In this document: one piece after another, positions 57,976 through 63,926 of the stretch
How the letters are laid out: each line of letters begins with the position of its first letter
How positions within the stretch are numbered: the first letter of the stretch is position 1
Notes under the pieces: generated by a model
Seen by the model: the letters and a program-made list of their open reading frames with translations, nothing else
The model's database searches: none
What the model was told of the DNA's origin: nothing
Position numbers and translations under genes: made by a program
Assembly (NCBI GenBank): GCA_947507875.1
Contig: CANNQP010000007.1
Coordinates: 62,001-126,000, forward strand
Direction: 5' to 3'
Source of the DNA: Verrucomicrobiaceae bacterium
GTDB taxonomy: Bacteria; Verrucomicrobiota; Verrucomicrobiia; Verrucomicrobiales; Verrucomicrobiaceae
DNA: 64,000 nt

Positions 57976-58902
57976 TCAAGGCTTGGAGGGTTTGCCGAGA
58001 TGCTTTTGGAACCAGGCGGCGGCGAGGTCCACGGTCTCGGCGCACCAAGGGTCACTCATCCAGAAGGGATGCGGTGCCTGGCGCAGGGTGTGGAGGCCGG
58101 TTTCGATGCCAAGGGTCCGCATTTGTTCCATCATCTCGGCACGGCCGATCTTGAGTGTGTCTTTTTCACCTTCGATGAAAAGGATCGGTGGCATGTCAGC
58201 ACGCACATGGGTGATCGGAGAGGCGGCGGCGAAGACCGCGGGCTTTTCGGCGCAGGTGCCGCCGAAGAAGAGCTGGGCGTTCTCGTTGGTCTTTTCGCGA
58301 TTCGCGGTCACGAGATCTTGCGTGGCTGCCATGACGATGGCGGCTTTCACCCGACTGGATTGATCGCGATGAGGGCCTTCGCCTTCAAAGTCGGTTAGGC
58401 CTGAGGTGGCTGCGGTGAGGCCAGACAAATGGCCGCCCGCCGAACCGCCCATGCAGCCGATGCGTTCGGGGTCGATCTTGAGTTCACGGGCGTGAGCGCG
58501 CAGGTAGCGCAGGGCGGCTTTGCAATCGTGAAGCGCAGCCGGGTAGGGAGCCTCCGTGGCGAGCCGATAGCTCACCAAGGCGGTGACGAAGCCACGCTGC
58601 GCGAGACTCTCCATCATGGGTTTGTCGGAATCAATTTGGCGTGCCTTCCAGCCGCCGCCGTGGATGTCGAGGATGCAGGGCCAGGTGCCTTCGGCCTTGG
58701 GTACATAGACCTGCAGTTCCACACGGTGCTCAGGATAGGCCGCGACTTCCAGGGTGCGCAGCTCGTGGGTGCTGGGGGTTTGCGGGAGTAGCTTTTTGAA
58801 CCGAGGTTTTGGTTGGGTCGCAGGCGTGCTCGCTGGTTTCGGGGTTTCTGCCTGCGTGGCAAAGGCGAGGAGGACGAGGGTGAGGGCGAAGCGGAACGTC
58901 AT
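57976..58902 (-). CDS. exported esterase/lipase (HSL/BD-FAE type alpha/beta hydrolase)
   Basis: From ATG 58902 the protein is 308 residues, with signal peptide (TFRFALTLVLLAFATQAET). It shows the oxyanion motif DIHGGGW, the nucleophile GGSAGGH (Ser), and candidate acid and base EGEKDT and QAPHPFW. Pro-rich residues follow the signal. BD-FAE-like enzymes cleave feruloyl or acetyl esters from plant polysaccharides; the substrate here is unknown. It converges with the beta-helix gene (5 bases between stops) and is divergent from the peroxidase gene. Confidence 0.86.
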   Translation of the reverse strand: MTFRFALTLVLLAFATQAETPKPASTPATQPKPRFKKLLPQTPSTHELRTLEVAAYPEHRVELQVYVPKAEGTWPCILDIHGGGWKARQIDSDKPMMESLAQRGFVTALVSYRLATEAPYPAALHDCKAALRYLRAHARELKIDPERIGCMGGSAGGHLSGLTAATSGLTDFEGEGPHRDQSSRVKAAIVMAATQDLVTANREKTNENAQLFFGGTCAEKPAVFAAASPITHVRADMPPILFIEGEKDTLKIGRAEMMEQMRTLGIETGLHTLRQAPHPFWMSDPWCAETVDLAAAWFQKHLGKPSKP

Positions 58903-59093
58903 GAGGAAAGAGGCTAACGCGGGGCTGACGCTGGCTTTTCTGGAGAAAACCAAGCGCGGGTAACTTTTACCATCGCTTCACAAATCTGTCGGTCTGACGA
59001 CATCGAGCCTTAACATAGGGGAAGTCTATTGGGGGTGTGACAACGCTGGCGATGACCAGCAACGCCACATTCAACCACCATCCAAACTAGACC

Positions 59094-60941
59094 ATGAAAA
59101 CGTTCTCTACCTTGCTGATCGGCCACTGGTTCCCCGTCACCGCCTTGCTTGCTCTGGCTAATCTTGGCACCCAGGTTTCTGGCCAAATGGCAGCTCCCCG
59201 TGTGGGCAATCCACCCGTGACCACGTCTTCCAACAAGGTCGCCCCGATTCCCCGCACGACACCGGGCCAACCTCCAGCGCAGCCACCCACACCGCCGACT
59301 TCCTCCGGTGGCTCTCGCCCCTCACGCCCCACGCCGCCGACTCTACCCACGGGTCAGCCCCTGCCGCCCAGCCTGCCGAGTTCCTTTGTTTTGCCCGAAG
59401 AATTTCGCACGGCGAATGGCAGTGGCAATCACGTGACCCTGACCGCACGCGGCACGCCGGATCTACCCTTTCGACGTCTAGCCCCTGCCGCCTATGCCGA
59501 TGGCGTGAGTGAGCCTGCTGGCGGCACCCGTCCCAGCGCTCGTGCGATCAGCAATGCGGTGGCCAAGCAGCCTAACCTGCGTCCGAATCGCCGCGGAGCG
59601 AGCGACTTCCTCTGGCAGTGGGGCCAGTTCCTGGATCATGATCTGGATGAAACGCCGACAGCGAATCCGGCAGAGCCTTTTCCCATCGCGGTGCCGGCGG
59701 GAGATCCCGACTTTGACCCTGCCCGCACCGGCACGGTCACGATCGGTTTGAATCGCAGCAACTACGTGATGGTGGATGGAGTGCGGCAGCAAAAGAATGC
59801 GGTCACCGCCTGGATTGACGCTTCCCAGATCTATGGGTCCGATGCGGTGCGCGCGGCGGCTTTGCGTGCGAATGATGGCACGGGACGCTTGCGTGTGACG
59901 ACGAGTGAACATGGGGATCTCTTGCCGACTCATTCCGATGCTGTCGCGGCCTTGCCGCCTGTGCCCGGCTTCTTTGTGGCAGGCGATGTGCGGGTGAATG
60001 AGCAGGTCGGTTTGATCGCCATCCACACGCTGTTTTTGCGTGAGCATAACTTCTGGGCGGACCTGTATCGCACCGCGAACCCGGATGCTGAGGATGAAGA
60101 GATCTATCAATTCGCCCGCATGATCGTGGGCGCTGAGATGCAGGCCATCACCTATCGCGAGTTTTTGCCAACGCTGCTGGGTCCAGGTGCGATCAAGCCT
60201 TATCAGGGCTACAAGGCAGAGGTCGATCCTGCGATCTCGAACGAATTCGCCACGGCTGCCTATCGTCTCGGTCATAGCCTGCTTTCGCCCACGCTGTTGC
60301 GCCTAGATGCCGACGGCAACGAGATCGAGGCGGGACATCTCTCCCTGGCTGATTCCTTCTTTCAGCCTCAGCAGGTCAGTGACCATGGCATTGATGTTAT
60401 CCTGCGTGGTCTGGCGACGGGTCGTGCCCAGGAGCTGGATGAATGGCTCATTGATGATGTGCGCAATTTCCTCTTTGGTGCCCCAGGTGCAGGTGGCTTT
60501 GATCTCGCGGCCCTGAATATCCAGCGCGGTCGTGATCACGGCCTACCCAGCTTTGCTCAGATGCGGGTCGCTCTCGGTCTGCGTCCGGTGAATCGCTTTC
60601 AGGATGTGAATGCGAACCGCCAGGTGGTGGCAGAGCTAGATGCGGCTTACGAAAGCCCAGCGGACATTGACCTGTGGATAGGCGGCTTGGCAGAGGTGGA
60701 TCGCCCTGGCTCGATGGTGGGCGAGACCTTTCATCGCATCTTGGTCGATCAATTCACTCGTCTGCGCGATGGCGACCGCTTCTGGTATGAGAAAGTGCTG
60801 CCCTCCGCCATGGTGCGCATGATCCAGCAGCAGACGCTCAGCGTCATCCTGCATCGCAACACCAAGATCGGCACGGAGGTCGGTCGGAATGTTTTCATGG
60901 CACCGCCTCCTCGCCGTCCCGCGCGCACGGTTGCTCGCTGA
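59094..60941 (+). CDS. exported animal-type haem peroxidase
   Basis: A 615-residue peroxidase of the peroxidase-cyclooxygenase superfamily. An N-terminal signal-like segment is followed by a Pro/Thr-rich linker (about 36-95). The catalytic domain has the distal site GQFLDHDLDETP (Gln178, His182, Asp183 for Ca2+), the Arg/Glu pair in DVRVNEQ (Arg300, Glu303), FLREHN, the proximal His394 in YRLGHSLL, and LNIQRGRDHGLPSF. The Arg-x-x-Glu and proximal spacing match myeloperoxidase. It should oxidise halides or phenolics outside the cytoplasm; physiology unknown. ATG 59094 is the first Met and starts a plausible export signal. Confidence 0.92.
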   Translation: MKTFSTLLIGHWFPVTALLALANLGTQVSGQMAAPRVGNPPVTTSSNKVAPIPRTTPGQPPAQPPTPPTSSGGSRPSRPTPPTLPTGQPLPPSLPSSFVLPEEFRTANGSGNHVTLTARGTPDLPFRRLAPAAYADGVSEPAGGTRPSARAISNAVAKQPNLRPNRRGASDFLWQWGQFLDHDLDETPTANPAEPFPIAVPAGDPDFDPARTGTVTIGLNRSNYVMVDGVRQQKNAVTAWIDASQIYGSDAVRAAALRANDGTGRLRVTTSEHGDLLPTHSDAVAALPPVPGFFVAGDVRVNEQVGLIAIHTLFLREHNFWADLYRTANPDAEDEEIYQFARMIVGAEMQAITYREFLPTLLGPGAIKPYQGYKAEVDPAISNEFATAAYRLGHSLLSPTLLRLDADGNEIEAGHLSLADSFFQPQQVSDHGIDVILRGLATGRAQELDEWLIDDVRNFLFGAPGAGGFDLAALNIQRGRDHGLPSFAQMRVALGLRPVNRFQDVNANRQVVAELDAAYESPADIDLWIGGLAEVDRPGSMVGETFHRILVDQFTRLRDGDRFWYEKVLPSAMVRMIQQQTLSVILHRNTKIGTEVGRNVFMAPPPRRPARTVAR

Positions 60942-61017: not shown

Positions 61018-61083
61018 ATGAAAAAGACCTGTGCGCTGTTGGCTTGCCTCATTCTGCCGCCAGTGGCATGGACAGAGGCTTGA
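61018..61083 (+). CDS. possible 21-residue membrane leader peptide upstream of waaA
   Basis: An ATG (61018) opens a 21-codon frame MKKTCALLACLILPPVAWTEA that stops at TGA 61081-61083, overlapping the waaA ATG by one base (TGATG). The sequence has the basic start and hydrophobic core of a signal peptide but nothing after it. It could be a translational coupling leader or a chance frame. Coding status is uncertain. Confidence 0.35.
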   Translation: MKKTCALLACLILPPVAWTEA

Positions 61084-62405
61084 TGTCGCTCGCCTTTACC
61101 CTGCTCCTTTACAATCTGCTGCTGCCCCTCGGCCTGGTCTTTCTGCTGCCAGGAGCGGTGCGGAAGATGAAGGCGCGTGGGGGGCGCTGGTCTGATCTAG
61201 GCGAGCGCTTTGGGTTTTTGCCCATGGAGAAATGCGCGGCGCTCGCGTCCTTGCCTTGCGGTCAGGATCGACTCTGGATTCATGCGGTGAGCGTGGGTGA
61301 GGCGGGCATTGCCATCAAGCTCGTGACCCGGCTGCTGCGGGAGCGACCGCACACAGGCATTGTCATCACCACCACCACACCCACCGCGCAGGCGATGGTG
61401 CAGGACTTTGCCAGCAGGCATCCGCAGCGTGTCGTGGTGCTGTATTCGCCAGTCGATCTCCCCTGGGTGGGTTCTGCGTTTCTGGAGCTCATTCGCCCTG
61501 CGCAGATCATTCTGGTCGAGGCGGAACTCTGGCCCAACTTGGTTAGCATGGCCCGACGTCAGGGCATTCGGGTGTCGATGGTGAATGCTCGTCTTTCTGC
61601 CAAGTCGGAAAAGCGCTTCCGGCAGCTAGGTTTCTTGGTGCGGCCGATTTTTGCCATGCTCGATCGAGTGCTCGTGCAGGAGCCAGGAGATGCGGAGCGC
61701 TTTGCAGGCATTGGGGTGAAACGGGAGCACATCCAGCACACGGGCAGCATCAAGTTTGATCCGCAGGGGGCAGAGGCTGATCCTGAGCAGGTCGATGCGT
61801 TGTGGCAGGTTTTGCAGCGCGCAGGCATCACGGCTCAGCAGCGGGTCATCTTGCTCGCCAGCACGCACTCGGGTGAGGAAGTGCTGCTAGCGCGTGTGAT
61901 GCAAAGTCTCAGCCGACATCACCACGATCTCGCGCTGCTCATCGTGCCACGTCATGTCGAGCGCACGGAGGCGATCCTTGCTGCATTGAGCGAGATCGGT
62001 CTCGAGGCACAGCGGCGATCTGCGGTTTCCACCGCCCTCGCATCTGGCCTTCCTTCCTTGATCATCGACACGACGGGTGAGCTGCGTGCTTGGCAGTGCT
62101 TGGCTAGCATCGTCATCGTGGGCAAGAGCTTCCTCGCGGTTGGTGGCCAGAATCCTGCGGAGGCGGTGATGGCGAAAAAGCCAGTGCTCTTTGGTCCTCA
62201 CATGGAGAACTTCGAACCGCTTGTGGACTTGCTTTTGAAACACCAAGGCGCGGTGCAAGTGCCAGACGTGACTGCTTTGGAAAAGGAACTGGCTAGCCTG
62301 CTGACGGACGCGGTTCGTTGCCAACGGCTGGGCGAATCTGGTCATGCTGCGTTGCGGGCTCATGAAGGCGCGACGGACAAGACACTGGCTGCCCTTTTCG
62401 CATAA
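61083..62405 (+). CDS. waaA: 3-deoxy-D-manno-octulosonic acid transferase
   Basis: WaaA (KdtA, family GT30) adds Kdo to lipid A precursor at the inner membrane. From ATG 61083 the protein is 440 residues with an N-terminal anchor (SLAFTLLLYNLLLPLGLVFLL). WIHAVSVGEAGIAIKL, TTTTPTAQAM, EAELWPNLV, and the C-terminal GGQNPAEAVMAKKPVLFGPHMENF are strong family motifs. It starts by TGATG overlap with a 21-codon frame. With lpxI at 20.6 kb it indicates a conventional lipid A-Kdo outer membrane. It is followed after 24 bases by the NYN-beta-lactamase gene. Confidence 0.93.
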   Translation: MSLAFTLLLYNLLLPLGLVFLLPGAVRKMKARGGRWSDLGERFGFLPMEKCAALASLPCGQDRLWIHAVSVGEAGIAIKLVTRLLRERPHTGIVITTTTPTAQAMVQDFASRHPQRVVVLYSPVDLPWVGSAFLELIRPAQIILVEAELWPNLVSMARRQGIRVSMVNARLSAKSEKRFRQLGFLVRPIFAMLDRVLVQEPGDAERFAGIGVKREHIQHTGSIKFDPQGAEADPEQVDALWQVLQRAGITAQQRVILLASTHSGEEVLLARVMQSLSRHHHDLALLIVPRHVERTEAILAALSEIGLEAQRRSAVSTALASGLPSLIIDTTGELRAWQCLASIVIVGKSFLAVGGQNPAEAVMAKKPVLFGPHMENFEPLVDLLLKHQGAVQVPDVTALEKELASLLTDAVRCQRLGESGHAALRAHEGATDKTLAALFA

Positions 62406-62429: not shown

Positions 62430-63926
62430 ATGAAATCCACTTCCGTCATGCCCAGCTATCTCCTTGTGGACGGACACAACGTCATGCATGCCTGGCCGGA
62501 ACTGGCCAAGCACCTGCGCGTGACGAGCAAGCGTCATCTTGCGCGGAGTGAGCTGCTGCAGCGGCTGCGCCATCTGCAGGACATGACGGGCACGCAGATC
62601 GTGGTCGTCTTTGATGGAACCACGGCCAAGATCACGGAAGAGCGTGAACCGCATGGCTTGCAGATCATCTATGCCGATGCCGGCCATACGGCGGATGACC
62701 TGATCGAGCAGCTCGCCGCGAAGTATGCCAAGGACAGGCCCATGCGTGTGGCTTCGGCGGATGGGCTCGTGCGCGAGACAGTCACGGCCTTTGGCGCCGA
62801 CTGGATCAGCCCGGACATGCTGAGTCGGCTGTGTGACGATGCCGAACGCGACATGCGTGGCCGTGTGGAAAAGCTGCACACGCGGCGGCAAATGTTAGGC
62901 TGGTTTGGCCTGGGTGGATTGGGTTTGGGTAAGCCGGCGGCTGTGCGAGAAACCGCACGCCTTAGCGAAGCTGCGATCACTGCCGCAGTGAAGTATGCCG
63001 CTGAACGCAAAACGCAGGCGCTGCTCATCAAGCAGCACGGTCGCATCCTACACGAGAGTTATCCGAATGGCGGTGGGCGTCATCAGCGTCTGCGCATCTA
63101 CAGCGGCACGAAGGGCTTTTGGGGACTGGCCGCCATGGCCGCGGTGGAAGATGGGCTGATCGCGCTCGATGAGCCTGCGGCGGCGACTTTGCCCGAGTGG
63201 CAAGACGACGCTCAGCGCGCCAAGGTCACGGTGGAGCATCTGCTCGATTTCACGGGCGGACTGGAGCGTGGGCTCGCCATCCATGAAGACGGCCTGAAGG
63301 ACCGCAATGCGATGGCCATGAAGCAGCCCATGGTGGCCAGGCCGGGCAAGCGCTTCATTTACGGGCCTAGCCAACTGCAAATCTTCCATGAGGTGCTGAA
63401 GCGCAAACTCGCGCGCACGCGGCGCAAGGAATCGCCCACGAAGTATCTGGAGCGTCGGGTGCTGCGCCCGCTGGGATTGGGGCCGCAGCGCTACCTTGCT
63501 GATGCCGCAGGCAATCCCCTGCTGGCGGCGGGTTTCGTCCTGACGGCCAATCAGTGGGCTCGCTTGGGCGATTGCCTGCTGCGGGAGGGCGCGCCGCTGC
63601 TGAAGGCAACGTCCTTTCAAGCTCTGCTGGAGGGTTCTCAAGCCAACGCGGCTTACCGTTTCGGCTTCTGGAACAATCGCGCCGCAAAGCAGGAATCCGC
63701 GCGTGAGATCGACATTGAGGACCAGCTGGAGGTGGACTGGGACCGCCAATCCTGGTCACATGTCTGCCTCGGCAAACATCTGCCTGCGGATCTCATCGCC
63801 TGCATCGGCAGCGGCTATCAGCGCCTTTATGTCATCCCTTCGCAGGAGCTGGTCATCATCCGTCAGGGCACCAATGCGCGCTTTCGCGATGGCGACTTTC
63901 TGCGCACCGTGCTGGGTTCACGTTGA
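62430..63926 (+). CDS. NYN (YacP/Rae1-like) ribonuclease domain fused to a beta-lactamase-like serine hydrolase domain
   Basis: A single 498-residue frame with two unrelated halves. Residues about 9-150 are a YacP/Rae1-type NYN domain: YLLVDGHNVMHAWPEL (Asp14, Asn17), VVVFDG (Asp62), TADDLIEQLA, and VASADGLVRET (Asp111), all of the acidic residues expected for a metal-dependent ribonuclease. Residues about 180-498 resemble a class C beta-lactamase/serine hydrolase: ALLIKQHGRILHES, SGTKGFW with the SxxK motif (Ser225, Lys228), and the later VTVEHLLDFTGG. The tyrosine motif is weak (YGPS). A Gly-rich linker (GWFGLGGLGLGK) joins them. There is no signal peptide, which is odd for a beta-lactamase fold. 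ATG 62430 or 62448. Confidence 0.85.
   Translation: MKSTSVMPSYLLVDGHNVMHAWPELAKHLRVTSKRHLARSELLQRLRHLQDMTGTQIVVVFDGTTAKITEEREPHGLQIIYADAGHTADDLIEQLAAKYAKDRPMRVASADGLVRETVTAFGADWISPDMLSRLCDDAERDMRGRVEKLHTRRQMLGWFGLGGLGLGKPAAVRETARLSEAAITAAVKYAAERKTQALLIKQHGRILHESYPNGGGRHQRLRIYSGTKGFWGLAAMAAVEDGLIALDEPAAATLPEWQDDAQRAKVTVEHLLDFTGGLERGLAIHEDGLKDRNAMAMKQPMVARPGKRFIYGPSQLQIFHEVLKRKLARTRRKESPTKYLERRVLRPLGLGPQRYLADAAGNPLLAAGFVLTANQWARLGDCLLREGAPLLKATSFQALLEGSQANAAYRFGFWNNRAAKQESAREIDIEDQLEVDWDRQSWSHVCLGKHLPADLIACIGSGYQRLYVIPSQELVIIRQGTNARFRDGDFLRTVLGSR

Follow-up and report, generated by a model that had tools for sequence, protein, structure and literature searches.

How does one gene come to encode both a ribonuclease of the Rae1/YacP type and a serine hydrolase with a class C beta-lactamase fold, and on which side of the cytoplasmic membrane do the two halves of its product reside? 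The gene lies in a stretch of 64,000 nucleotides of Verrucomicrobiaceae DNA (the window, in what follows), in which positions 62430 to 63926 of the plus strand form one unbroken frame of 498 codons, with a second possible in-frame ATG at 62448. A preliminary description of this locus had read the frame as a complete NYN domain followed by an SxxK hydrolase, without a signal peptide and with the hydrolase in the cytoplasm. Its reading of the frame is borne out, as both Pfam matches lie above their cut-offs and the motifs that it named are present. Pfam, solved structures and orthologues place a NYN_YacP domain at residues 11-152 (62460-62885, plus strand) and a serine hydrolase domain at residues 183-498 (62976-63923, plus strand). 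Between them, at residues 147-172 (62868-62945, plus strand), lies a Tat-like signal segment with n-region, twin arginines, core and c-region, which was delimited by conservation, a motif control and hydropathy. The gene is an unusual variant built from known parts. Searching for the same fusion elsewhere, as had been proposed, we covered 68 genomes of the family and found complete copies in 10, all of them in the window's genus (G000, G005, G009, G021, G023, G024, G069, G072, G073 and G077), so it is no sequencing accident.

The first half matches NYN_YacP (PF05991) over residues 11-152 with an E-value of 9e-28 (97.8 bits, cut-off 24.6), and its closest solved sequence relative is the YacP chain 5mq8, which aligned to residues 10-153 (E 5e-14). 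Rae1/YacP is a ribosome-associated endoribonuclease of Bacillus subtilis. It is described as an endoribonuclease of the ribosomal A site in PMC6613710, and PMC11346440 describes the aspartates of NYN nucleases as their active site. The corresponding acidic residues of the fusion are D14 (VDGH), D62 (VFDG), D89 and D111 (SADG); the first three are identical in all ten fusions, and so is D111 in the fusion alignment. Like 5mq8, the fusion thus has a full NYN_YacP domain with the same acidic residues, but unlike it, its NYN domain ends in the Tat-like segment and an attached hydrolase. The NYN half is a putative ribonuclease. A Pfam search of the ten fusion genomes returned exactly one NYN_YacP domain in each, inside the fusion.

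The second half matches the Beta-lactamase family (PF00144) over residues 199-405 (E 2.9e-18, 66.6 bits, cut-off 27), and its closest solved sequence relatives are class-C-related hydrolases. It carries an SxxK pair at S225-x-x-K228, and S225, K228 and Y311 are invariant in all 24 aligned hydrolases (alignment A2, 24 of 43 hydrolase rows) as well as in all ten fusions. By fold it resembles Lsa45 (8dc1, VIA Z 29.4), 6-aminohexanoate-dimer hydrolase (2dcf, VIA Z about 28) and EstG (7uda, VIA Z about 27); 285-291 residues align with these three proteins, but at ~18-21% identity. Y311 aligns with the tyrosine of the YSN motif of Lsa45, where the fusion has YGP instead. The third motif likewise aligns with its counterpart in Lsa45, but with the sequence GSGYQ. 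True class C beta-lactamases carry the motifs YxN and KTG, whereas the fusion has YGP at residues 311-313 and GSGYQ, its third motif, at G460-Q464. By these motifs it is a relative of class-C-fold enzymes and not a beta-lactamase, and together with the low identity they mean that the substrate of this putative hydrolase cannot be read from its relatives.

The junction between the halves has a common form in all ten fusions, namely KL-x-[ST]RR-x-[MLI]-[LM]-x-W followed by an uncharged hydrophobic core rich in Gly, Ala and Leu. Behind this core, an A/S-x-A/G (AxA-like) site was recognized by eye in nine of the ten. The twin arginines, R152-R153 in the window (62883-62888, codons CGG CGG), are identical in all ten fusions despite changing codons (CGG CGG, CGT CGG, AGA CGT, CGA CGT, CGC CGC and others), and distant fusion pairs show heavy synonymous change (dS about 0.7 or more). 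Identity between fusions is 65% at residues 149-170, compared with 75% in the NYN domain, 71% in the hydrolase and 29% in the linker at residues 171-182. Because identity drops to this low value in the 12 residues directly behind it, the signal segment appears to be more than a tolerated linker.

The hydropathy of the core ranges from 1.04 to 1.79 among the fusions and from 1.04 to 1.81 among the seven nearest stand-alone hydrolases. The mean at 610 other internal RR sites is 0.07, and 9% of these sites reach at least 1.0. Among 451 ORFs (147,473 residues), the 8 fusions then included were the only ones to have the motif with an uncharged core past residue 60, and 12 other ORFs had it at the N-terminus. 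This control is weakened by our having defined the pattern after the junctions were inspected. Against a Tat signal stands the window's own copy, whose segment is poorer than that of any other fusion, with a core hydropathy of 1.04, a lysine at residue 168 and no clear signal-peptidase site.

Two further features of the junction deserve mention. Trp158 (62901-62903 in the window), in the core directly behind the RR motif, is identical in all ten fusions and missing from the signals of the seven nearest stand-alone hydrolases. In four fusions (G024, G023, G072 and G073; loci L057, L061, L135 and L136) a lipobox-like cysteine (LPAC or LPSC) follows the core, and these four proteins might be Tat lipoproteins.

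The stand-alone relatives of each half indicate what was joined here. Stand-alone NYN proteins stop soon after the helix bearing DMRxRL or an equivalent. The seven nearest stand-alone hydrolases, from members of the same genus (G071, G018, G076, G068, G033, G034 and G017), have domains 64-69% identical to that of the fusion, and all seven begin with a Tat-like RR signal of the same sequence kind as the fusion junction. As in the fusion, this signal stands directly ahead of the hydrolase domain; unlike in the fusion, it is N-terminal and no NYN domain precedes it, the NYN protein being encoded by a separate gene elsewhere. Among the remaining stand-alone hydrolases, whose signals were classified by eye, many appear to have one of the Sec type. 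Because the nearest stand-alone hydrolases carry Tat-like signals and the fusion keeps one between its domains, the hydrolase of the fusion is more likely to be extracytoplasmic. There is indeed no signal peptide at the N-terminus of the fusion, but the preliminary description, in stating that none is present, overlooked the Tat-like segment inside the protein, and the cytoplasmic compartment that it gave to the hydrolase is probably wrong. If so, a domain list alone (ribonuclease plus beta-lactamase, no N-terminal signal) would lead annotation to the wrong compartment.

We therefore favor, as the likely though by no means certain reading, a gene product built to span the membrane, with the NYN domain in the cytosol and the hydrolase exported by the Tat pathway, an assignment based on motif, conservation and homology. 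Most likely once in the genus, a stand-alone Rae1-type NYN gene would have been fused in frame with the 5' end of one encoding a Tat-exported hydrolase, with loss of the NYN stop codon and the hydrolase start codon and retention of the Tat signal. The NYN domain would then act as a folded and unusually large n-region of roughly 150 residues before the twin arginines. TatC would bind the internal signal and the folded hydrolase would cross the membrane, leaving the NYN domain on the cytoplasmic face. In most of the relatives, cleavage at the signal-peptidase-like site would then free the hydrolase, and a hydrophobic tail would remain on the NYN domain. Where this site is poor, as in the window's species, the protein may instead persist as an uncleaved anchor with its N-terminus inside and its C-terminus outside. 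The Tat machinery itself is present, with one TatC in each of the ten fusion genomes and a TatA-type protein in nine, the exception (G021) being a genome that is 52% complete.

Such an arrangement has a partial precedent in the Streptomyces Rieske protein Sco2149, a dual Sec-Tat membrane protein, which is described as having an internal Tat signal (PMC13186574, PMC5449189). As in the fusion, a twin-arginine signal within the chain sends a C-terminal folded domain out, but Sec-inserted helices stand before the signal in Sco2149, whereas the fusion has a soluble folded nuclease domain there. According to PMC5449189, Tat signals ordinarily stand at free N-termini. The internal cases known come after Sec-inserted helices; the fusion lacks such helices and has its twin arginines at residues 152-153. 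No case of an internal Tat signal behind a soluble domain was found in the open literature searched, and a folded soluble enzyme ahead of such a signal would be new. If the segment works, Tat would here be using, in nature, an internal signal that a folded, soluble domain precedes, and the fusion would provide both a test of the free-N-terminus rule and a ready substrate for studying it. It would also place the only NYN_YacP nuclease of the genome at the membrane, which bears on the site of ribosome-linked mRNA cleavage. A more elaborate possibility, which we offer only tentatively, is that the fusion is a natural Tat polyprotein, from which export and cleavage would give a membrane-tethered ribosome-type ribonuclease and an extracytoplasmic hydrolase, the location or release of the ribonuclease being tied to the export of its partner.

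The alternative that both domains cooperate in the cytoplasm (the hydrolase might, for instance, attack an ester or a peptide close to the ribosome), with the Tat-like segment as a fossil linker, can be weighed against the predicted structure. In the AlphaFold model (mean pLDDT 92.2, pTM 0.68; alignment A1, 72 of 89 rows) both domains are well folded, and the helix of the NYN domain at residues 128-158 runs on through the arginines, which favors this alternative. However, residues 158-171 (62901-62942, plus strand), which make up most of the hydrophobic core, are disordered (pLDDT below 50) and the hydrolase begins only afterwards, with a helix at residues 180-192. For the domain interface, for which the preliminary description had called for a structure prediction, the model, with its disordered junction, offers no hint that the two domains dock. 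A cytosolic enzyme would also suit the absence of an N-terminal signal, given that PMC5449189 places Tat signals usually at free N-termini, and the poor core and cleavage site of the window's copy. Yet it would leave the twin arginines and core conserved in ten of ten fusions next to a linker that is free to diverge, and each of the seven closest hydrolases without a NYN domain appears to be exported. We therefore consider a cytosolic bifunctional enzyme unlikely.

Alternatively, the gene might have two starts, giving the full-length protein and also a shorter exported hydrolase that begins at M130 or M142 and has a canonical N-terminal Tat signal. M130 is encoded by ATG in all ten fusions and would give an n-region of 22 residues; M142 is encoded by ATG in seven but its position reads ATC in G023, G072 and G073. 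No Shine-Dalgarno-like match precedes either codon in any of the ten fusions. Moreover, M142 is common in stand-alone NYN proteins with no hydrolase behind them, so its conservation needs no role as a start codon. Internal initiation thus seems quite unlikely, and the membrane-spanning fusion exported through its internal signal remains the reading that we prefer.

The distribution of the two halves bears on how the fusion arose. At a threshold of E 1e-40, 52 of the 68 family genomes had a match. Besides the ten genomes with the fusion, 30 encode both halves separately, 6 the hydrolase only, 6 the NYN protein only and 16 neither. The preliminary description had held that the fusion would be an accident if relatives carried the halves as adjacent genes; in the 30 genomes with separate halves they are never adjacent: 29 of these genomes have them on separate contigs, and G015 has both on contig C1, at a distance of about 1.5 Mb. 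No additional NYN or hydrolase copy reached the E 1e-40 threshold in any of the ten fusion genomes. The fused clade is supported in the NYN tree (89/91) and in the joint tree of NYN and hydrolase (94/90); on the tree built from the hydrolase by itself two changes are required, but one fused clade is not rejected (p-AU 0.44). These trees, which cover 28 of the 39 genomes with both parts, give moderate support to a single fusion event in the genus.

Close relatives were also sought in 84,980 species, which yielded 12 loci. Five of these (L034-L038) are full fusions, and the records bear the labels Verrucomicrobiaceae, Brevifollis, Prosthecobacter or uncultured Verrucomicrobia. One of the five (L035) is from the named-strain record of Brevifollis gellanilyticus NBRC 108608. 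Five loci (L034, L036, L042, L044 and L045) were dropped from later counts as copies of G069, G077, G056, G075 and G074, respectively, with 100% neighbours; L035, L037, L038 and L039 were treated as G005, G021, G024 and G034. An assembly artefact is ruled out by the occurrence of the same fusion in ten genomes, and a phage origin was set aside after a scan of viral contigs returned no relative.

Both halves are under purifying selection. Among diverged fusion pairs, dN/dS is about 0.05-0.11 for the NYN domain and 0.12-0.17 for the hydrolase, and because it is low in each, both halves appear to have been retained as working proteins. The signal segment gave 0.10-0.25 and the linker about 0.3-0.5 where computable, values that are rough given the small size of these segments. 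That a lost stop codon merely joined unrelated genes in one lineage, with one half decaying or cut off without function, would fit the confinement of the fusion to one genus and the differing neighbours of its carriers (no operon logic links the halves), but it is very unlikely given this selection, the intact active sites in all ten fusions and the persistence of the fusion across divergence to about 65% identity in genomes without a separate copy of either half.

Beyond the family, 153 of 387 sampled genomes of the phylum have a NYN_YacP match. Among the matches listed, 12 loci with long frames were examined and none held a second fusion of NYN followed by hydrolase, several being long merely through an open frame upstream; the other listed loci were assessed by frame length alone. 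Nor did we find a paper on a fusion of NYN and beta-lactamase domains in the open literature searched. Four of the 12 long-frame loci, from distant members of the phylum (L151, L152, L153 and L154), have frames of ~620-630 residues that end in a C-terminal NYN_YacP-like domain behind a long helical-looking region; Pfam scans of two of these (L151 and L153) gave no further domains.

The gene upstream of the fusion in the window (61044-62405, plus strand) encodes a protein like 3-deoxy-D-manno-octulosonic-acid (KDO) transferase (Glycos_transf_N, PF04413, E 3.6e-54) and ends 24 bases ahead of the fusion start. Such a gene neighbours the fusion at only two of the eight fusion loci compared and is thus no constant partner. 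A conserved operon partner was therefore rejected, and because the neighbours differ in other fusion genomes, gene context offers no explanation for why NYN and hydrolase are paired. In many members of the genus (L101, L102 and similar loci), the stand-alone NYN gene lies between a PIG-L deacetylase gene and genes for a TPR protein and a hydantoinase. Farther upstream in the window are a gene for a 615-residue protein that contains a complete animal haem peroxidase domain (59094-60941, plus strand; PF03098, E 4.8e-153) and one for an alpha/beta hydrolase of the BD-FAE family (57976-58953, minus strand; PF20434, E 3.5e-47).
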